Source: an uncultured Prevotellaceae bacterium (GTDB taxonomy: Bacteria > Bacteroidota > Bacteroidia > Bacteroidales > Muribaculaceae). Taken from it: a DNA stretch of 39,031 nt. A program made the position numbers and the translations under genes. Below the pieces are notes generated by a model, which was not told the origin of the DNA, did not search any database, and was given only the letters and a program-made list of their open reading frames with translations. Positions 3,050 through 15,301 of the stretch are shown here, one piece after another. Numbering within the stretch: position 1 is the first letter of the stretch; every line of letters starts with the position of its first letter. The stretch is from contig OMUK01000132.1 of the NCBI GenBank assembly GCA_900314215.1, positions 1-39,031 on the forward strand. The letters are read 5' to 3'.

Positions 3050-3075
3050 AGAAGTGGCTAACTCGCCACTTCTTC
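3048..3075. terminator. Perfect 11-bp hairpin between convergent genes
   Basis: GAAGAAGTGGC at 3048-3058 is the exact reverse complement of GCCACTTCTTC at 3065-3075, with a 6-nt loop. It overlaps the stop codons of both the tail-like gene (3047-3049) and the integrase gene (3058-3060 on the complement). No T-run follows on either strand, so it may act as a bidirectional RNA-end stabiliser rather than a classical intrinsic terminator. Confidence 0.5.
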
Positions 3076-4254
3076 GGCACCTTCTGTCTCTTGCACCTCG
3101 TCATCGTCAAGTGCGCCCTTGAACTGTTTGACCTCGCTGTGCACAAGCATACTGTTTTCTTGAATATAGCGGTTGGTTGTACTGACATCGCTATGCCTTG
3201 CTTGGTCACGTGCCACAACCACGCCTTGCTCATTGGCGAGGTCACGAATACCGCTATCTTTCAGTGAGTAGAACTGATACTCATCGCTCCAGCCTAAGGC
3301 TTCACGCATCTTCTTCCAACGGCGGTTGTATTGGTCTGCATTGCATCGGTCTGGCGACGGCTTGAAGTTCTTTCCAAAAAGGAAATAACTGGAGGGAGCT
3401 GAAAGCACCCCAAGTTCAACCATCAGCTTCAGCACAGTGTCATTCAATGCCACCTTTGCGCTTTTCTTGTTCTTGCTGAAGTCCTCGCTCACAAAGATAG
3501 TCTTATCTTTGAGCGATATGTCGCCCACTTTAAGATAGGAAAGCTCTGTAGGGCGAATAAAAGTAAAGTACTCCATGTAACAAGCGAGCAGGAAGTACTT
3601 GTCTTCACGCTTCAAATACTGACGCATTTGTTTGAGTTTTGTGGGCGACAAGTCCTTGCGGAACTTCTTCTTCTCGTCAAGGGCTGGAATGTGGTCAACA
3701 GGATTGCTGTCAATGTACTTGCGAGAGACCATGAACTCGGCAAAGCTGTAGCACCAGCCTCGATAGTTGTTTCGTGTTCGTTCGGTCACTCCACGGTCAA
3801 GGTACAGCCAATCCAAGTAGTCGTTGACAAACGCGCTGTCAAACTGATAGGCGTACTTGATTGGCAGCACACATGAGGATAGATACTGGTTGAGGATGTT
3901 CACCCGTGACTGATACGAATGCTTGGTTTTGGTTCTTGACTTTCGCTCAATATACTCCATATATCTAGATAAGACATCTGATAATAAAGTAAAACCTCGC
4001 GACTCTTGTGTATTGACCCAAGGATTCCAGCCGGCGCGCAGTTGGCGAGTCACAGTCTCTATAATCTCGGCTGCTTTGCGTCTCTTTTCGGATTTTTTCT
4101 TGATGTTGTCAAGCATGAATTTTTTCCGGCGCATTTCGCCCGTAACTGGATCGAAAGCGAAAAAATCCACATACCAACATTTGCCTTCATGGAGCCTTGG
4201 ATAGGTAAATCCAAGAGTTTCTGATGCAGTGTTTCTTTTTGTTTGATACGACAT
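3058..4254 (-). CDS. Tyrosine recombinase / phage-type integrase
   Basis: The 398-residue protein has the three-part layout of Bacteroidota element integrases: an arm-binding N-terminal region (about 1-85), a SAM-like core-binding domain (about 88-185) and a catalytic domain (about 200-375). Catalytic residues visible are Arg234 in FIRPTEL, His354 in ARHSDVSTTNRY and the nucleophile Tyr363. The usual HxxR box appears as YSLKDSGIRD (about 329-338), a variant I associate with many integrases of this phylum. The start is the ATG at 4254, preceded by an A-rich stretch. It would carry out excision and integration of the element. Its position next to tRNA-Ser suggests that the tRNA or its downstream flank is the target. 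Confidence 0.9.
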   Translation of the reverse strand: MSYQTKRNTASETLGFTYPRLHEGKCWYVDFFAFDPVTGEMRRKKFMLDNIKKKSEKRRKAAEIIETVTRQLRAGWNPWVNTQESRGFTLLSDVLSRYMEYIERKSRTKTKHSYQSRVNILNQYLSSCVLPIKYAYQFDSAFVNDYLDWLYLDRGVTERTRNNYRGWCYSFAEFMVSRKYIDSNPVDHIPALDEKKKFRKDLSPTKLKQMRQYLKREDKYFLLACYMEYFTFIRPTELSYLKVGDISLKDKTIFVSEDFSKNKKSAKVALNDTVLKLMVELGVLSAPSSYFLFGKNFKPSPDRCNADQYNRRWKKMREALGWSDEYQFYSLKDSGIRDLANEQGVVVARDQARHSDVSTTNRYIQENSMLVHSEVKQFKGALDDDEVQETEGAEEVAS

Positions 4255-4400: not shown

Positions 4401-4487
4401 CGGAGAGGACAAGATTCGAACTTGCGGTAGGGTTACCCCTACGGCAGTTTAGCAAACTGCTGGTTTCAGCCACTCACCCACCTCTCC
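4401..4487 (-). tRNA. tRNA-Ser (anticodon GCU)
   Basis: The reverse complement folds as an 87-nt type II tRNA. The acceptor stem is GGAGAGG/CCTCTCC with discriminator G at 4401. The anticodon arm GCAGT-TTGCTAA-ACTGC carries GCU, followed by a long variable arm and a T arm containing GTTCGAATC. CCA is not encoded. It reads AGC/AGU codons. It is flanked by its own promoter (4524-4554) and terminator (4351-4393) and is the likely landmark for the integrated element on its 3' side. Confidence 0.95.
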
Positions 4488-6598: not shown

Positions 6599-6667
6599 TA
6601 ACCGATTTTGGCTTCTTTTATACTCATAAAGGACAAAATCGAGTTGAAGAGAAAGAAGGCGATATAT

Positions 6668-7126
6668 ATGGAAAAAGCGCTACGCATCAATCTGTTAATA
6701 TTCCTCATAGTGCTCTTGATGGTGCCCGTTGCAGCCAACGGGCAACGCAATGCAAGGCGTGTGGGGCAGGTCAACCCCATGTCGCCCGAGCATCTGCAAT
6801 ACATAGAGTTTTACGAGTTTGAGCAAGTCGACGTTCAGCCCGAGTTTCCGGGTGGCGAGCGTGGGCTGGTCAATTATATCAACAACACCCGCGAGTATCC
6901 CTACAACGAGTATGTGCGCCACCAGCAAGGCCGCGTGCTGTGCAGCTTCATCATAGGCTCCGACGGCCGAGTGAGCCACATCCAGGTGATACGCAGTTCG
7001 GGCTACTCGGCTATGGACCAGGAAGCCGTGCGCGTGATCAAGAAGATGCCGCGTTGGGAGGCAGGCCGCGTGCACAACAGCAAGGTCAACGTGCGATGCA
7101 TCTTGCCCATCGCCTTCCGCTTGTAG
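6668..7126 (+). CDS. TonB C-terminal-domain protein
   Basis: The protein has 152 residues from the ATG at 6668, which places one hydrophobic segment (about residues 8-22) at the N-terminus; the frame is open further upstream without a better start. After a short linker comes a TonB C-terminal domain: PEFPGGERGLVNYI, then EYPYNEYVRHQQGRV, IIGSDGRVSHIQVIRSSG, LDQEAV-like MDQEAVRVIKKMPRW and a closing beta strand. It lacks the long Pro-rich periplasmic spacer of classical TonB, so it may be a short TonB-like partner or a periplasmic binding module rather than a full energy transducer. It is divergent from porQ and monocistronic. Confidence 0.8.
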   Translation: MEKALRINLLIFLIVLLMVPVAANGQRNARRVGQVNPMSPEHLQYIEFYEFEQVDVQPEFPGGERGLVNYINNTREYPYNEYVRHQQGRVLCSFIIGSDGRVSHIQVIRSSGYSAMDQEAVRVIKKMPRWEAGRVHNSKVNVRCILPIAFRL

Positions 7127-7165
7127 CGATACACATCACAAAATTGTAAATTGAGGCCAAGCCGC

Positions 7166-7196
7166 TTGCACGGGTGAAAAATTGTGCTTACCTTTG
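7166..7196 (+). promoter_or_regulatory. Promoter of the his leader and operon
   Basis: TACCTTTG at 7189-7196 is an exact -7 box. The -33 region carries TTG at 7166-7168 (CTTG at 7165-7168 gives 20-bp spacing). Transcription would begin near 7203, leaving a leader of about 240 nt before hisG. Confidence 0.7.
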
Positions 7197-7220
7197 CAGG
7201 CGAAATAGGTATTTATAACA

Positions 7221-7268
7221 ATGAGTATTGGTTACCGTCATCATCACCATCATCACCGCTCTCTGTAA
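7221..7268 (+). CDS. His operon leader peptide with six consecutive His codons
   Basis: ATG at 7221 opens a 15-codon frame, MSIGYRHHHHHHRSL, ending in TAA at 7266-7268. Codons 7-12 are CAT CAT CAC CAT CAT CAC. It sits about 18 nt after the predicted transcription start and 173 nt before hisG, and is followed by an intrinsic terminator. A run of the end-product amino acid's codons ahead of its biosynthetic operon is the hallmark of ribosome-mediated attenuation: uncharged tRNA-His would stall the ribosome on these codons. It was too short for ordinary gene calling. The peptide itself probably has no function after synthesis. Confidence 0.93.
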   Translation: MSIGYRHHHHHHRSL

Positions 7269-7389
7269 AAAGGAAAGCCCGATGACGCGTGCCACGACGA
7301 CGACGACAAAGACTCATTGAAGCGTTGAAACAAAAACGAGTGAAGCCGACTTTCCTGAAATTGCTCAGGTGAGTCGGTTGATTTTTTTA
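7236..7389 (+). promoter_or_regulatory. His attenuator (pause, antiterminator and terminator segments)
   Basis: Segment 1, CGTCATC (7236-7242), overlaps the His codons and pairs exactly with GATGACG (7281-7287). Segment 2 also contains AGGAAAG (7271-7277), which pairs exactly with CTTTCCT (7350-7356), the 5' arm of the terminator. GACTCA (7311-7316) can likewise pair with TGAGTC (7370-7375) in the 3' arm. If the ribosome stalls on His codons, segment 1 is masked, segment 2 is free to invade the terminator and hisG is transcribed. If it does not stall, the 1:2 hairpin and the terminator form. The pairings are read by eye; I did not compute energies. Confidence 0.75.
7346..7389 (+). terminator. 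Attenuator terminator upstream of hisG
   Basis: CCGACT (7346-7351) pairs with AGTCGG (7372-7377), and the inner CCTGA/TCAGG extends the stem through one mismatch and a wobble to a 6-nt loop. A seven-T run follows at 7382-7388. It lies between the leader peptide and hisG, so it acts inside the operon leader and not at a gene end. Confidence 0.9.
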
Positions 7390-7441
7390 TAAGCACATCA
7401 TCACAACAAAAATACAATCAAAAAAAAACAGAGAAAAAGAC

Positions 7442-8296
7442 ATGTTACGTATCGCTGTACAATCCAAGGGCCGTCTCTACGACGAGACGATGGAACTGCT
7501 CAAGGCCGCCGGCATCAAGCTCGTGGCGGTGAAACGCACGCTGCTGGTGCCCTCACGAAACTTCCCGGTAGAACTGCTGTTTCTGCGCGACGACGACATT
7601 CCCGACTCGGTGGCCACCGGCACTGCCGACATAGGCATCGTGGGCCTCAACGAGGTGCTCGAGAAGCACCAGGAGGTGAACGTGCTGCGCCACCTGGGCT
7701 TCAGCAAGTGCCGCCTCTCGCTGGCCATACCCAAGGAGACCAGCTACACGGGGCTGGAGTGGTTCAACGGCAAGAAGATAGCCACCAGCTATCCCAAGAT
7801 ACTGAGCGACTTCCTGAAGGAAAAGCACATCGATGCCGACATACACGTGATAAGCGGCTCGGTAGAGATTGCGCCCGGCATAGGGCTGAGCGACGCCATC
7901 TTCGACATCGTGTCGAGCGGCGGCACCCTGGTGAGCAACAACCTCAAGGAGGTGGAGGTGGTGCTGCCCAGCGAGGCCGTGCTCATAGGCAGCGACCGCG
8001 AGCTCGACGACGACAAGCGCAACGCCCTCAACGAGCTGCTCTTCCGCATCGAGGCCGTGAAGACCGCCGAGACCAAGAAATATGTGCTCATGAATGTGCC
8101 CAAGAGCAAGCTCCAGGCCGTGCTCGCCATTCTGCCTGGCATCAAGAGCCCCACTGTGCTGCCCCTGGCCGACGACAACTGGTGCTCGGTGCACTCGGTG
8201 ATCGACGAGAAAAACCTGTGGACCAGCATCAATGCCCTCAAGGCCGTGGGCGCCGAGGGCATACTGGTGCTCAATATCGAGGAAATGGTGCTGTAA
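7442..8296 (+). CDS. hisG: ATP phosphoribosyltransferase, long form
   Basis: This enzyme catalyses the first committed step of histidine synthesis, condensing ATP with PRPP to give phosphoribosyl-ATP. The 284 residues match the long HisG form. The two-lobed catalytic part covers about 1-208 (start LRIAVQSKGRL; RDDDIP; GTADIGIVG; PRPP loop around APGIGLSDAIFDIVSSGGT, residues 144-162). The C-terminal ACT-like regulatory domain covers about 209-284 and normally binds histidine for feedback inhibition, so HisZ is not needed. It is the first gene of hisGDCB and follows the His-codon attenuator, so control is expected at both transcription and enzyme level. Confidence 0.97.
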   Translation: MLRIAVQSKGRLYDETMELLKAAGIKLVAVKRTLLVPSRNFPVELLFLRDDDIPDSVATGTADIGIVGLNEVLEKHQEVNVLRHLGFSKCRLSLAIPKETSYTGLEWFNGKKIATSYPKILSDFLKEKHIDADIHVISGSVEIAPGIGLSDAIFDIVSSGGTLVSNNLKEVEVVLPSEAVLIGSDRELDDDKRNALNELLFRIEAVKTAETKKYVLMNVPKSKLQAVLAILPGIKSPTVLPLADDNWCSVHSVIDEKNLWTSINALKAVGAEGILVLNIEEMVL

Positions 8297-8339
8297 AGCC
8301 GATATTACATCTCTCTAAATATATAAAACACAAGAAATC

Positions 8340-9623
8340 ATGACAGTTGAAACAATCAAATATCCCGCGCGCGAGCAGTGGCCGCAGCTCATGCAGCGCG
8401 CAGTGGCCGAGACCCGAGAGCTGCACGACACCGTGGCGCACATCATGGCCAATGTGAAGCAGCACGGCGACCAGGCCCTGCGCGACTATGCGGCAAAATT
8501 CGACCACGTCGACCTTGGCGACCTCGCCGTGAGCCAGGCCGAGATCGACGAGGCCAGCGCCTCGCTCGACAGCGAGCTCAAGGCAGCTATCGACCAGGCA
8601 GCCAGCAACATCGCCAAGTTTCACGAGGCACAACGCATGCAGCCCATCGAGGTGGAGACCTCGCCCGGCGTGACATGCAGCCAGCGCGCCGTGCCCATCA
8701 CCGATGTGGGCCTGTATATACCCGGCGGCAACTCGCCCCTGTTCTCCACCGTGCTCATGCTGGGCATGCCTGCCCGCATAGCCGGCTGCCGCAACGTGGA
8801 GATGTGCACCCCCTGCGGCCCCCACGGCAAGGTGCACCCAGCCATCCTCTACGCCGCCCAGCGCTGCGGCATCGACCGCATCTACAAGAGCGGCGGCGCA
8901 CAAGCCATTGCTGCCATGACCTATGGCACCGAGACCATTGCACGGGTGAGCAAAATCTTCGGCCCAGGCAACCGCTTTGTGATGGAGGCCAAGATGCAGG
9001 CGCAATACGACAATGTGGCCATCGACATGCCTGCCGGCCCCAGCGAGGTGATGGTGGTGGCCGACGACAGTGCCAATCCCCGCTATGTGGCCAGCGACTT
9101 CCTCTCGCAGGCCGAGCATGGCCCCGACAGCCAGTCGACCCTGCTCACCACCAGCGAGGACTTTGCCCAGCAGTTGCCTCAAGTGATCGACGAGCTGCTC
9201 TCCAGCCTGCCCCGGCAGGAAATGATGAAGAAATCGCTCAGCCACAGCCACATCATCGTGATGCACAGCATCGACGAGGTGATGGACTATGTGAACGCCT
9301 ACGCTCCCGAGCACCTCATCTTGAACTGCGCCGATGCCCTCGCCCTCGCCAGCCGCGTGGTGAACGCCGGCTCGGTATTTCTGGGTCCCTACTCGCCCGA
9401 GAGTGCCGGCGACTATGCCAGCGGCACCAATCACACCCTGCCCACCAGCGGCTACGCCCACGCCTATAGCGGCGTGAACCTCGACAGCTTCACCAAGAAG
9501 ATCACCTTCCAGCGCCTCTCGCAGGCAGGCCTCGAGGGCATAGGCCGCACCGTTGAGCTCATGGCCGAGGCCGAGGACCTCATGGCCCACCGCCTGGCAG
9601 TGGCCGTGCGCCTCGGCCAATAA
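8340..9623 (+). CDS. hisD: Histidinol dehydrogenase
   Basis: This NAD-dependent, zinc-containing enzyme performs the last two oxidations, from L-histidinol to L-histidine. At 427 residues it has the family's usual length. Visible motifs are GPGNRFV (about 208), DMPAGPSEVM, the zinc-ligand region QAEHGPDSQS (Gln257, His260), the catalytic pair APEHL (Glu324, His325), the zinc Asp in ESAGDYASGTNH (about 358) and the C-terminal zinc His near 417 in LMAHRLAV. It starts 43 bp after hisG with no terminator between, and 29 bp separate it from hisC. Confidence 0.97.
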   Translation: MTVETIKYPAREQWPQLMQRAVAETRELHDTVAHIMANVKQHGDQALRDYAAKFDHVDLGDLAVSQAEIDEASASLDSELKAAIDQAASNIAKFHEAQRMQPIEVETSPGVTCSQRAVPITDVGLYIPGGNSPLFSTVLMLGMPARIAGCRNVEMCTPCGPHGKVHPAILYAAQRCGIDRIYKSGGAQAIAAMTYGTETIARVSKIFGPGNRFVMEAKMQAQYDNVAIDMPAGPSEVMVVADDSANPRYVASDFLSQAEHGPDSQSTLLTTSEDFAQQLPQVIDELLSSLPRQEMMKKSLSHSHIIVMHSIDEVMDYVNAYAPEHLILNCADALALASRVVNAGSVFLGPYSPESAGDYASGTNHTLPTSGYAHAYSGVNLDSFTKKITFQRLSQAGLEGIGRTVELMAEAEDLMAHRLAVAVRLGQ

Positions 9624-9652
9624 AATCAACCACAAAACTCCAAACGACGACA

Positions 9653-10696
9653 ATGAAAGCATCATTTGACATAACCCGCCTGGTGAGGCCCAATATCCTG
9701 GCCCTCGAGCCCTACAGCTGCGCCCGCAACGAGTTTCACGGCCAGGCAAGCGTGTGGCTCGACGCCAACGAGAGCCCCTACAACGCCCCCTACAACCGCT
9801 ACCCCGACCCCTTGCAGCTGCGGGTGAAAGCCGCGCTGAGCCGGGTGAAAGGCGTGCCCAGCGAGTGCATCTTTCTGGGCAACGGCAGCGACGAGTGCAT
9901 CGACCTGGTGTACCGCGTGTTTTGCGAGCCCGGCCGCGACAATGTGGTGGCCATGGCACCCAGCTACGGCATGTATGAGGTGTGCGCCCACATCAACGAC
10001 GTGGCCTACCGCAAGGTGCCCCTGCGCGACGACTACACCCTCGACGTCGACGCCATGCTGGCAGCCGTCACGCCCAGCACCAAGGCCATATTCCTGTGCT
10101 CGCCCAACAATCCCACCGGCAACGCCATCGACGTGGCCCTCATCGAGCGCCTGCTCATCGACTTTGACGGCATCGTGGTCGTCGACGAGGCCTATGGCGA
10201 CTTCTCGTCGAAGCCATCGATGCGATTCAAGTTGCGCGACTACCCCAACCTGCTCGTGATGCAGACCTTCTCCAAGGCCTGGGGCAGCGCCGGCGTGCGC
10301 CTGGGCATGGCATTTGCCTCAAAGCAGATCATCGACCTATTTAATAAGGTGAAATACCCCTACAACGTGAACCTGCTCACCCAGCGCTACGCCCTCGAGC
10401 ACCTGGAGAAAATCGAGCAAACCAAGGCGTGGACAAGCACCATACTTGCCGAGCGCAGCCGTCTCATCGCCGCACTCGAGCAGTTGCCGCAAGTGGTGAC
10501 CACCTATCCCACCGACGCCAACTTTGTGCTGGTGAAAACCATCGACGCCGACGGCATCTACAACTACCTGCGCGACCACGGCATCATCGTGCGCAACCGC
10601 AGCCGGGTGGAGAAGTGCCTGGGCTGCCTGCGCATCACCGTGGGCACCAGCCAGGAAAACGACGCAGTAATCAACGCAATCAAGCAATATGGATAA
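9653..10696 (+). CDS. hisC: Histidinol-phosphate aminotransferase
   Basis: This PLP-dependent class I/II aminotransferase makes histidinol phosphate from imidazole acetol phosphate and glutamate. The 347 residues show the expected landmarks: NESPYNAP near the N-terminus, [17 protein letters not shown] (about 149-156), VVDEAYGDF, the PLP lysine Lys208 in [14 protein letters not shown], and RNRS near the C-terminus. Its last codons overlap the start of hisB by 8 bp, so the two are probably translationally coupled. Confidence 0.97.
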
Positions 10697-11828
10697 TAAG
10701 AAAAGAGCCCTGTTTATCGACCGCGACGGCACCATCGTGGTCGAGCCTGTGGTCGACGAGCAAGTCGACTCGTTTGAGAAACTGGAATTTCTGCCCGGCG
10801 CCATCACCAGCCTGGCCTTCATCGCCCGCACCCTCGACTTTGAGCTGGTGATGGTGACCAACCAGGACGGCCTGGGCACGCCCTCGTTTCCCACCGAGCA
10901 ATTCATAGGCCCACACAACCTCATTCTCAAGACTCTGGAGGGCGAGGGCGTGAAATTCAGCGACATCATCATCGACACCACCCTGGAGCGCGACCACCAG
11001 CCCACCCGCAAGCCCGGCATCGCCCTGCTGGGCAAGTACACCGGCGGCAACTACGACCTGGCCCGCAGCTACGTGATAGGCGACCGCCTCACCGACGTGC
11101 AGCTGGCCCAGAACCTGGGAGCCAAGGCCATCTTGCTTGCACCCGACATTGCCCAGGCCAAGCAAGCCGTGCACGAGGCCGCGCTCGACGACGCCCTGGC
11201 CATTGTGGCCCCCGGCTGGCACCGCGTGAGCGACTACCTGCGCGGCGGCGAGCGCACGGCCCACATCGTGCGCAACACCCGCGAGACCCGCATCGACATC
11301 GTCATCGACCTCGACGGCACCGGCAATTGCGAGATCTCGACCGGCATAGGCTTCTTTGACCACATGCTCGACCAGATAGGGCGCCACAGCGGCATCGACC
11401 TGAAAATCAAGTGCGACGGCGACCTCTACGTCGACGAGCACCACACCATCGAGGACACCGGCATCGCCCTGGGCGAAGCCCTCGGCCAGGCCCTGGGCGA
11501 CAAGCGCGGCATCGACCGCTACGGCTTTGTGCTGCCCATGGACGACAGCCATTGCACCGTGGCACTCGACTTCGGCGGCCGCAGCTGGCTCGTGTGGGAC
11601 GCCGAGTTTCACCGCGAGAAGATAGGCGAGATGCCCACCGAGATGTTTCCCCACTTCTTCAAGAGCCTGTGCGACGGCGCGCGCATGAACCTCTACGTGA
11701 GCGCCCGCGGCGCCAACGAGCACCACAAGATTGAGTGCATATTCAAGGGGCTGGCCCGCGCCCTCAAGCAAGCCGTGAGGCGCGACGTGTTCAACTACCG
11801 TCTGCCCAGCACCAAGGGCATGCTGTAG
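10689..11828 (+). CDS. hisB: Bifunctional histidinol-phosphatase / imidazoleglycerol-phosphate dehydratase
   Basis: The protein has 379 residues. The N-terminal HAD phosphatase (about 1-175) carries the DxDGT motif at Asp11-Asp13 and RKPG further on. It hydrolyses histidinol phosphate. The C-terminal dehydratase (about 192-379) carries [16 protein letters not shown] and GANEHHKIE, whose His and Glu residues bind the metals, and it makes imidazole acetol phosphate. Where the E. coli enzyme has a zinc-binding Cys cluster before RKP, this one reads [13 protein letters not shown] and has no cysteine, so that zinc site is absent. I believe this is shared by related Bacteroidota enzymes but cannot verify it here. 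It is the last gene of the cluster; hisH, hisA, hisF and hisI are not in the window. Confidence 0.96.
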
Positions 11829-12214: not shown

Positions 12215-15200
12215 ATGAGAAAACAGCTATTGCTTCTGTTATTTTCCCTCTTAGCGGTGATGGGTTATGCCCGCACGGTGACGGGAGTTGTAACATCGGC
12301 TGCCGACAAACAAGGCGTGATAGGCGCCTCGGTACGCGTGCATGGCACAACCCGCGGCGTGACAACCGACATTGACGGAAAATTCACGATTGATGCGAGC
12401 GACAACGATGTGCTCGACATCACATTTGTGGGTATGAAACCCATCTCGGTGAAAGTGGGCAACCAATCGAACCTGAACATCGTGATGGAAGACAACGCCC
12501 AGACTCTGGGAGAAGTTGTGGTAACGGCCATGGGGCAGACTCAGGAGAAGAAGAAACTGAACTTCGCAGTCCAGTCGCTTAACTCCGATGAGGTGACCGC
12601 AGGCGGAAACACCAACTTTGCCAACTCACTGCAAGGTAAAATCGCCGGCCTGCAGGTGTCGACTGGCGGCGGCTCGCCAAACTCGTCGACGCAGGTGATC
12701 ATACGTGCAATCTCCTCGATCAACAACGCTCAGAACAACGAGCCCCTGGTGATTGTCGACGGCGTGCCCGTGCGTGGCCACGGCAGCTCGCTGGGCGATA
12801 TCAACCCCGACGATATTGAGAACATGACCGTGCTCAAGGGCGCAGCAGCAAGTGCCCTCTACGGCCAGGAGGCTGCCAACGGCGTGATCATGATCACCAC
12901 CAAGAGCGGTTCGCGCGACGGCAGCGTGACGGTGAACGGCAACGTGAGCGTCGAGGTGAGCACCCCCATGCGCGTGCCTGGCATCCAGACCATGTTCACT
13001 CCCGGTGTGAGAGGCATGTATAAAGAGAATACCGGCAGCGGTGGCTGGGGCCCCTACTTGCAGAGTGGCGAGCAGCGCTACGACAACGTGGGCAACTTCC
13101 TGGGCACTGGCTTCCAGCAGAAATACGACATGAGCATCTCGGGCGGCACCGAGAAATTCAACTCCTATGCCTCGGTGTCCTACACCAATAGCGACGGCAT
13201 TGTGCCCAAGGACTACAAGGACCAGCTCACCGTGTTTCTCAAGGGCATGTACAAGCCCAGCGAGCAAGTCACCTTCAACCTGAGCACCAACTATGTGCAC
13301 AGCAAGTCGCGCGGCTTCGGCAACTCGATGTCGACCATCTACAACTGGGGCATCAACCACGACATGAGCGACTATCAGACCAAAGAAGGCCACGTGAACT
13401 GGGCCAACTACTACGACGCCTGGGACGAGCTGCTCGACACGCAGCGCATAGGCGCAGCCGTGTCGCCCTACTACGGCCGCAACCGCGACAAGAGCGAGAC
13501 CCAGAGCGACCGTATCGTGATCAACGGCCAGGTGAGCTACGAGCCCATCAAGGACCTCGTGCTCACGGGCAAGATTGGCTACGACAAGGGCTACAGCACC
13601 TATGAGAGCTACACCGTACCCCGCCTCTACGACGGCGACCTGGTTGACCCCGAGAACACCGACGTGAAGTCGATTCTGGCCAGCCGCCAGTCGCTCTACG
13701 GCAGCTACAGCTTCGACCCCTCGCGCAGCGAGCAATTCACGTTGCAAGGCCTGGCAACCTATAAGAAGACGATTGCCGAAGACTTCAACATCAACGTGCT
13801 GCTGGGTGCCGAGTACAAGAAGAACACGAGCTACGAGGCCACCATCTATGGCGAGCACTTCCAGCTGGGCGGTGACTACTACAGCTTCATGAACACCGAC
13901 TTCACCAATGGCGACCTGCTCATGGACAACCACCCCACGCTGTACCACACCAAGTATAACAAGTATGGCTACTTCGGCGAGCTGCGCTTCGACTACAAGG
14001 GCATCGCCCAATTGAGCGTGACAGGCCGCTACGACGGCACCTCGCGCCTCAAGCAAGTCGACTACGACTACTTCTACCCATCGGTAACCGCCGGTGTCAT
14101 CTTCAGCGAACTCTTCCACATGACCAACAGCTGGTTCTCCTATGGCAAGATACGCGGCAACTGGGCTAAGGTGGGTAAAGACTGCCCCGCCTACCTCTTC
14201 ACCGACACCTACAAGCAATGGACCATATTCCCCGACGGCGGTTATGGTGTGGACCCAACCACCTCGCGCGCCATCACGCTTGAGCCTGAGATGGACAGCT
14301 CGTGGGAGATTGGCGCCGACCTGCGCTTCTTCAACAGCCGCACCCGCCTGGATATAGCCTACTACTCGACTACGGCCGACAACCAGATCGTGAGCGTGCG
14401 TGTGTCGCCTGCATCGGGCACCATCCTGCAAACCCGCAACGAGGGTACTGTAAAGAACCACGGTATGGAAATAAGCCTGGCACAAGACATCGTCAAGACC
14501 GACGATATCACCTGGACGGCCAACTTGAACTACTCGTTCAACCGCGGCAAGGTGACCAAGCTGCCCGAGGGCGTGACCGAGATTCAGGGCACCCAGTATG
14601 GCGACATCTTCCCAGTGGCACGCCTCAACGGCTCGTCGACCGGTCTCTCGGGCAAGGACTACTTGCGCGACCCCGACGGCAACGTGATATGCGACGCCAA
14701 TGGTTATCCCACCATCAACCCGGCCAAGGGCATCTACATCGGCAACCGTGAGCCCGACTTCCTGATAGGCTTGGGCAGCAGCTTCCGCTACAAGCACGCC
14801 ACCCTGTCGTTCCTGCTCGACGGGCGCTGCGGCGGCGACGTGGCCAACGTCACGGGTCGCAGCCTGCTCACCAACGGCATGGCCAAGATATGGGAGAAAT
14901 ACCGCAACCGCGAGTATATCGTAGATGGCGTTCAGGCTGTGACCAACGCCGACGGCACCACGAGCTATGTGAAGAACACCACTCCTGTGGTGCTCGACCA
15001 GAACTATGTGAGCAAGTACTACAGCACCGTCTCGAGCAACTTTATCGAGGACGGCAGCTACCTGCGACTGAGCTATGTGACGCTGAGCTACGACTTCTCG
15101 TCGATGCTCAAGAAGGGATGGGCTGTGAAGAACCTGAGCTTGAGCGCTACAGGCCGCAACCTCTTCATCCTCACCAAGTACACCGGCAACGATCCTGCTG

Positions 15201-15301
15201 TGCTGGCCTCTACATCGGGCGGTACTGGCGGTTCGGGTATCGACTACTACCAAGTGCCAGTTTCTCGCAGTTTCAATTTCACGCTTAAAGCAACATTCTA
15301 A
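12215..15301 (+). CDS. SusC/RagA-family TonB-linked outer-membrane transporter
   Basis: The protein has 1028 residues. A signal peptide (about 1-19) is followed by a carboxypeptidase-D regulatory-like beta-sandwich (about 22-90), a TonB-box-like LGEVVVTAMG (98-107) and a plug domain. The plug contains LQGKIAGLQV, PLVIVDGVPV and DIENMTVLKGAAASALYG, the standard SusC signature. The long beta-barrel ends in the aromatic NFTLKATF. SusC proteins import glycans or peptides through the outer membrane using TonB energy, with SusD as an extracellular lid. SusD follows 19 bp downstream, so the pair is co-transcribed with the next two lipoprotein genes. There is no N-terminal extension for an anti-sigma factor. 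Confidence 0.95.
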   Translation: MRKQLLLLLFSLLAVMGYARTVTGVVTSAADKQGVIGASVRVHGTTRGVTTDIDGKFTIDASDNDVLDITFVGMKPISVKVGNQSNLNIVMEDNAQTLGEVVVTAMGQTQEKKKLNFAVQSLNSDEVTAGGNTNFANSLQGKIAGLQVSTGGGSPNSSTQVIIRAISSINNAQNNEPLVIVDGVPVRGHGSSLGDINPDDIENMTVLKGAAASALYGQEAANGVIMITTKSGSRDGSVTVNGNVSVEVSTPMRVPGIQTMFTPGVRGMYKENTGSGGWGPYLQSGEQRYDNVGNFLGTGFQQKYDMSISGGTEKFNSYASVSYTNSDGIVPKDYKDQLTVFLKGMYKPSEQVTFNLSTNYVHSKSRGFGNSMSTIYNWGINHDMSDYQTKEGHVNWANYYDAWDELLDTQRIGAAVSPYYGRNRDKSETQSDRIVINGQVSYEPIKDLVLTGKIGYDKGYSTYESYTVPRLYDGDLVDPENTDVKSILASRQSLYGSYSFDPSRSEQFTLQGLATYKKTIAEDFNINVLLGAEYKKNTSYEATIYGEHFQLGGDYYSFMNTDFTNGDLLMDNHPTLYHTKYNKYGYFGELRFDYKGIAQLSVTGRYDGTSRLKQVDYDYFYPSVTAGVIFSELFHMTNSWFSYGKIRGNWAKVGKDCPAYLFTDTYKQWTIFPDGGYGVDPTTSRAITLEPEMDSSWEIGADLRFFNSRTRLDIAYYSTTADNQIVSVRVSPASGTILQTRNEGTVKNHGMEISLAQDIVKTDDITWTANLNYSFNRGKVTKLPEGVTEIQGTQYGDIFPVARLNGSSTGLSGKDYLRDPDGNVICDANGYPTINPAKGIYIGNREPDFLIGLGSSFRYKHATLSFLLDGRCGGDVANVTGRSLLTNGMAKIWEKYRNREYIVDGVQAVTNADGTTSYVKNTTPVVLDQNYVSKYYSTVSSNFIEDGSYLRLSYVTLSYDFSSMLKKGWAVKNLSLSATGRNLFILTKYTGNDPAVLASTSGGTGGSGIDYYQVPVSRSFNFTLKATF

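Follow-up and report, generated by a model that had tools for sequence, protein, structure and literature searches.

A predicted His-codon attenuator ahead of hisGDCB and related leaders in Bacteroidota

The genes hisG, hisD, hisC and hisB span 7442-11828 of the window, the whole stretch of 39,031 nucleotides of DNA that was analysed. The region upstream of them raises the question of whether this operon of a Bacteroidota gut bacterium is governed by a ribosome translating a run of histidine codons and, if so, whether the arrangement is peculiar to one genome. An earlier note had claimed classical His-codon attenuation here, and the claim is supported by the anatomy of the region, by its conservation and by folds in which the ribosome masks part of the RNA. 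Sequence and modelling together make it highly probable that the region is a ribosome-mediated transcription attenuator of hisGDCB, for which we infer transcription-translation coupling, termination and a response of termination to histidine. As far as sequence comparison can tell, the arrangement recurs across much of Bacteroidota and is no isolated case.

Leader, promoter and terminator ahead of hisG

The features of the region are collected in Table 1. A short ORF rich in codons of the operon's own amino acid was read directly from the sequence, with the 15 codons and the six consecutive His codons that the earlier note had described, and when both strands of the 2.88 Mb genome were scanned, no second run of six CAY codons was found. 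The stretch GACGACGACGACAAA at 7296-7310 spells an enterokinase-like DDDDK near the six-His run. A cloning His-tag was considered and rejected, as the DDDDK-like stretch lies past the stop codon in another frame and the His runs of relatives stand in different sequence; the proximity of the two is taken as coincidence.

Table 1. Coordinates of the predicted attenuator and its neighbours in the window
Feature	Position	Strand	Details
TonB-like gene	6608-7126	+	upstream neighbour on the same strand as the leader
Bacteroidota-type promoter motif	7166-7196	+	TTG 7166-7168, 20-nt spacer, TACCTTTG 7189-7196; from sequence
Leader start region	7219-7226	+	exact complement of 7312-7319; includes the start codon
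Leader ORF	7221-7268	+	48 nt including stop, 15 codons, peptide MSIGYRHHHHHHRSL then stop; read from sequence
Segment 1	7236-7242	+	exact complement of 7281-7287
Six consecutive His codons	7239-7256	+	putative sensor; read from sequence
Segment 2, putative antiterminator 5' arm	7271-7277	+	AGGAAAG; exact complement of 7350-7356; would lie under a ribosome that has reached the stop codon
Segment 1 partner	7281-7287	+	exact complement of 7236-7242; from fold
Complement of leader start	7312-7319	+	exact complement of 7219-7226; from fold
Predicted terminator hairpin	7345-7378	+	5' arm 7345-7358 (holds segment 3, 7350-7356); 3' arm 7365-7378 (segment 4)
Seven-T run	7382-7388	+	3' of the hairpin, which is followed by TGATTTTTTT; from sequence
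hisG	7442-8296	+	TIGR00070, TIGR03455
hisD	8340-9623	+	NCBIfam TIGR00069 / TIGR01141 / NF003937 set for hisD, hisC and hisB
hisC	9653-10696	+	NCBIfam, same set as hisD and hisB
hisB	10689-11828	+	NCBIfam, same set as hisD and hisC

In the promoter motif, TTG and TACCTTTG stand in the arrangement of the Bacteroidota promoter form, and transcription is expected to start near 7203. A sigma-70 scanner did not call a promoter at 7166-7196, as expected for a promoter of the Bacteroidota type. Of 110 loci with a His leader, 85 have TAnnTTTG within 70 nt 5' of the leader, and in 70 it is preceded by TTG at 17-23 nt; for TAnnTTTG, mononucleotide shuffles gave 6.15 and a pair of control windows gave 1 and 4. 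Shine-Dalgarno-like 5-mers were present at 3 of the same 110 leaders. The latter count supports the earlier note's statement that there is no strong Shine-Dalgarno.

An intrinsic terminator comprising the hairpin and its T run (7345-7388) is predicted by sequence and fold between the leader and the first gene, where the earlier note had placed one. The helix 7345-7358:7365-7378 has 13 pairs with one internal mismatch (-20.0 kcal/mol), and 7203-7441 as a whole folds better than its dinucleotide shuffles (z -4.05, 0/200). In eight same-genus sequences, two-sided changes were observed in 7 of the 13 pairs, a level reached in 0/500 shuffles. An automatic terminator scan missed 7345-7388 and reported 7168-7187 in its stead, weakly and at a level that shuffles also produce. 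Between leader and hisG, a hairpin with a T-rich tail was found at 101 of the 110 His-leader loci; as 26 of 50 hisG loci without a His leader also have one, the hairpin alone is not specific.

The leader might instead act on translation, with ribosomes that have translated it re-initiating at hisG or unmasking it. Passages of PMC4833913 propose that leader ORFs near genes raise translation through re-initiation, and the same passages report a re-initiation peak at short distances, 11-14 bp in Bacteroidetes, whereas distances in attenuation are usually relatively long. In the window, 173 nt separate the leader stop from hisG and include a strong predicted terminator, and terminator-like hairpins follow nearly all His leaders (above). 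We consider translational control very improbable and attenuation of transcription the better account.

Alternative folds and the position of the ribosome

In the proposed mechanism, a ribosome supplied with plentiful charged His-tRNA would reach the stop codon (7266) and cover segment 2, so that the terminator would form and transcription would stop before hisG. When charged His-tRNA is short, the ribosome would stall within the His run and leave segment 2 free to pair with 7350-7356 as soon as that stretch is made, before the 3' arm of the terminator exists. RNA polymerase would then read into hisG. With no ribosome on the RNA, the leader start would be paired with 7312-7319 and the terminator would form.

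Transcripts of increasing length were folded with a ribosome simulated on the first or sixth His codon, at the stop codon, or absent. At transcript ends 7356, 7358, 7362 and 7366, a stall at the first His codon with the 5' end masked, or at the sixth, gave the pairing AGGAAAG:CUUUCCU a probability of 0.91-0.99. The first-His stall modelled with a narrower footprint gave 0.74-0.95, and a ribosome at the stop codon or absent gave 0.00. At ends 7370-7374, values of 0.59-0.65 were retained for the masked first-His stall only, with 0.17-0.24 for the narrower footprint and at most 0.01 for the sixth-His stall; from 7378 on, the terminator won in all ribosome states. Because the terminator wins every state once the transcript is at its longest, the model depends on the order of events during transcription, and the same is true of E. 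coli his. Within the window, the modelled antiterminator is thus exclusive with the terminator, and a ribosome that has reached the stop codon covers the 5' arm of the former; this layout is also supported across families (see below).

The E. coli his leader, folded as a control, gave a pattern equal to that of the window in both cut and full-length transcripts. The cut transcript of the window gave a switch value of 0.98 when stalled and 0.00 at the stop codon (shuffled mean 0.03). The arm was paired upstream at 0.60, 0.30 and 0.29 in the stalled, stop and free states, with the terminator at 0.91 at full length; the corresponding values for E. coli were 0.64, 0.32 and 0.29, with the terminator at 1.0. 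The equilibrium result is therefore no argument against the model.

Three pairs of segments had been put forward in the earlier note as the mutually exclusive 1:2, 2:3 and 3:4 structures. All three are exact complements, and 7271-7277:7350-7356 holds as the predicted antiterminator, but 7311-7316:7370-7375 fails as the 3:4 structure. Wherever a transcript was long enough to include both arms, its probability was 0.00 in all five states, and it was rejected as the terminator in favour of the helix 7345-7358:7365-7378. The stretch 7312-7319 pairs instead with the leader start, 7219-7226. The helix 7236-7242:7281-7287 reached 0.99 with the ribosome at the stop codon and 0.00 otherwise; we give it little weight because it would have to enclose the ribosome.

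The folds brought out a further helix, 7219-7226:7312-7319, which pairs at 0.99 in modelled ribosome-free RNA and would hide the leader start codon. Over 92 loci, own pairs scored higher for leader-start pairing than swapped pairs by a small margin (11.5 vs 10.7, 0/1000 permutations), and among nine near loci the own score was reached in 23/5000 permutations. We suggest that, through this helix, an untranslated leader may lead to termination by default. Similar complements to the leader start were seen in near relatives, for example one of 10 bp in L157.

Leaders ahead of hisG and trpE in other genomes

A His leader was defined as an ATG-initiated ORF no longer than 50 codons, with four or more His in eight codons, within 700 nt upstream of hisG. 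The main sample of 152 loci was drawn from 55 of 58 matching genomes in the family (G068 and G085, both fragments, and G093 were omitted), 68 of 73 order genomes outside the family (omitting G135, G140 and G245, which are fragments or partial, and G164 and G263) and 29 of 127 phylum genomes, a number that excludes the window's own genome; 58 matching genomes of the phylum search lie outside the examined samples. His leaders were found at 102/152 of these loci, at all eight other hisG loci of the same genus, and at 21 of 40 extra phylum loci of 400 nt each. Among the extra loci, the distant HisG forms (28-34% identity) accounted for 0/10 and one other family, f140, for 3/10. Pooled, 131 of 200 Bacteroidota hisG loci have a short His-rich ORF upstream and 69 have none by the ORF criterion. 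The earlier note's proposal to look for conserved His runs upstream of hisG in related genomes thus brought no refutation.

In 350-nt windows, 109/160 loci were positive, against 0.26/160 expected from dinucleotide shuffles and 1/160 on the reverse strand. These numbers bear on a simpler account, in which 7345-7388 merely terminates the TonB-like gene, encoded upstream on the same strand, and the His run is there by chance. The promoter motif separates that gene from the leader, conserved leaders are followed by terminators, and the leader is kept ahead of hisG in relatives at a rate far from the chance one. We regard this account as hardly credible, the least probable of those considered, and retain attenuation.

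Named records with a His leader include Bacteroides salyersiae, Phocaeicola plebeius, P. coprophilus and Heminiphilus faecis, and one leader of the phylum sample (L148) reads MTFIQLHHHHHHICTQAN. Candidatus Sodaliphilus limicaballi (L164; Muribaculaceae, Bacteroidales) has a leader peptide identical to that of the same-genus locus L160, and the HisG proteins of the two loci are equally identical to that of the window, which suggests that the window comes from Sodaliphilus. Records of Segatella, Prevotella and Xylanibacter (L183, L198, L210, L217 and L219) had a His leader in 0/5. Of 88 loci (80 named plus eight same-genus) that overlap the other samples, 86 had at least 150 nt upstream; 36 of these were positive, and many of the negatives carry Prevotella titles. 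The missing leader in the named Prevotella group could reflect loss or another kind of control.

Within the window's genus, hisG was present in 9 of 101 genomes, the window's own included, and in 2 of the 48 better ones; histidine synthesis therefore looks patchy in the genus. All nine hisG-bearing genomes carry the His leader. A misbinned contig was considered as an explanation and rejected, as the closest HisG (90%) belongs to a same-genus genome assembled as one contig and the other same-genus loci all have the leader.

To compare the antiterminator across loci, each locus was scored for its best gapless pairing of the sequence surrounding the leader stop with the terminator 5' arm plus loop. 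Own pairs scored a mean of 16.3 vs 12.8 for swapped pairs (0/2000 permutations, n=101). By sample, the own score was reached in 5/2000 permutations for the family (n=27) and in none for the order (n=51) or the phylum (n=15). Permutations do not remove relatedness, and taking one locus per family, which only lessens it, gave 16.8 vs 12.9 (n=47; 0/10,000 permutations, 0/100 dinucleotide shuffles). Examples of complementarity include GGTAAGC:GCTTACC (L061), CTCAGGCG:CGTCTGAG (L118) and a 13-bp match (L097). Within the genus the comparison was not significant (124/2000, n=8; 882/5000 for nine near loci), and in the eight same-genus sequences, where 81.0% of cells were paired, no antiterminator covariation above that of shuffles was found. 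The window's own 7-bp match, taken alone, is weak and was reached by 66/2000 shuffles. Conservation of the competing hairpins, which the earlier note had made a test of its proposal, is accordingly seen across families, but covariation of the antiterminator is not seen inside the genus; comparison of sequences supports the putative pairing 7271-7277:7350-7356 at the former level and not at the latter.

A fold-switch test applied to the relatives was passed by 59/101 loci and by 1014/3030 shuffled copies, a modest difference. L154, the closest relative, whose leader is longer, does not pass (0.10/0.26). The test has a partner window fixed for the Bacteroidota layout, and the real his leader of E. 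coli does not pass it either. It discriminates poorly. The probable reason is frequent overlap of segment 2 with the end of the leader, a part that the shuffle keeps.

Upstream of trpE, a short ORF with at least three Trp in four codons was found at 16 of 30 Bacteroidales loci (L273-L302), where shuffles expect 0.01; the example in L283 reads MTNRTWWWWISDSRFP. The window's own genome (L284) has no Trp-run ORF ahead of trpE. Trp-rich short ORFs were found upstream of hisG at 0/160 loci and His leaders upstream of trpE at 0/30. With His runs at hisG, Trp runs at trpE and no crossover, the leader amino acid follows the pathway. This specificity speaks against the idea that the His-rich peptide senses a metal, or translation slowed by an antibiotic, in place of charged His-tRNA. 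A ribosome stalled for whatever reason would leave segment 2 free, and poly-His peptides bind metals; the matching of each run to its own pathway nonetheless makes such sensing a very unlikely substitute for sensing of charged His-tRNA by the attenuator.

Relation to known attenuators

The Rfam model for His leaders (RF00514, His_leader) matched neither the window nor any of 19 Bacteroidota loci, the window's included, at its gathering score, and the E. coli his control matched it at 131.6 bits. A scan of 7100-7500 against Rfam gave six sub-threshold matches only; T-boxes and riboswitches were not among them, and Thr_leader (18.2 bits vs a threshold of 55) was the only leader family. The E. 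coli his attenuator (hisL) resembles the element of the window in having a short leader with a His run, competing hairpins and a terminator before hisG. It uses more helices. The Bacteroidota element differs from it in the place of the antiterminator 5' arm, which occupies positions 5-11 nt beyond the first nucleotide of the stop codon, in the Bacteroidota-type promoter of the window and in the scarcity of Shine-Dalgarno-like motifs.

For Flavobacterium psychrophilum, passages of PMC9723704 report strong indications that amino acid operons are preceded by leader-peptide attenuators, together with a structured 5' element at hisG that is conserved in other Flavobacteriaceae and has no Rfam hits. 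That element shares its phylum and its gene with the leader of the window; the passages give no His run or helices, and their scope is Flavobacteriaceae only. According to parts of PMC2965389 (2010), a His leader peptide lies upstream of hisZ and of a hisS paralogue in Bacilli, and leader peptides are otherwise known only in Proteobacteria and Actinobacteria. The Bacilli leader is thus alike in being a His-codon leader outside Proteobacteria and differs in phylum and genes. The attenuators of amino acid operons in Actinobacteria, as presented in part of PMC1262725, are likewise RNA elements found by comparison outside Proteobacteria, in another phylum. A gamma-proteobacterial origin of leader-peptide attenuators was suggested from Rfam models in a passage of PMC3766115 (2013). 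Small ORFs in long 5' UTRs of B. thetaiotaomicron are called reminiscent of leader peptides in a passage of PMC7366714, and the parts seen of PMC8305728, which treats his genes in the superphylum, mention attenuation once, in the general introduction.

The mechanism is already known, and the passages of PMC9723704 foreshadow it in flavobacteria. Judged by the literature searched, what is new is the phylum-wide extent and the detail of the helices; the attenuation survey of Lopatovskaya (2010) may hold a prediction. The interesting part is the phylum-wide spread together with the Trp leaders ahead of trpE. Tentatively, with slightly less than even confidence, we propose that Bacteroidota own phylum-wide leader-peptide attenuators (His at hisG, Trp at trpE), of which the His ones fall outside the Rfam His_leader family, that these work without Shine-Dalgarno initiation and therefore need tight transcription-translation coupling, and that a start-hiding helix makes termination the default in some genera.

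The spread of a His attenuator through much of Bacteroidota suggests that the picture centred on Proteobacteria and Actinobacteria partly reflects the models used, and the Bacteroidota element could become a family model of its own. The proposal predicts a histidine response of his operons in gut bacteria, and the element would be a ready reporter for ribosome-RNA polymerase coupling in Bacteroidota.

Elsewhere in the window, a tyrosine-recombinase-like gene at 3058-4254 on the minus strand has weak matches to XerC/XerD, below the curated cut-offs. A tRNA gene lies beside it (4401-4487, minus strand), as at an integration site. The his genes are followed by a gene for a SusC/RagA-type outer membrane protein at 12215-15301.
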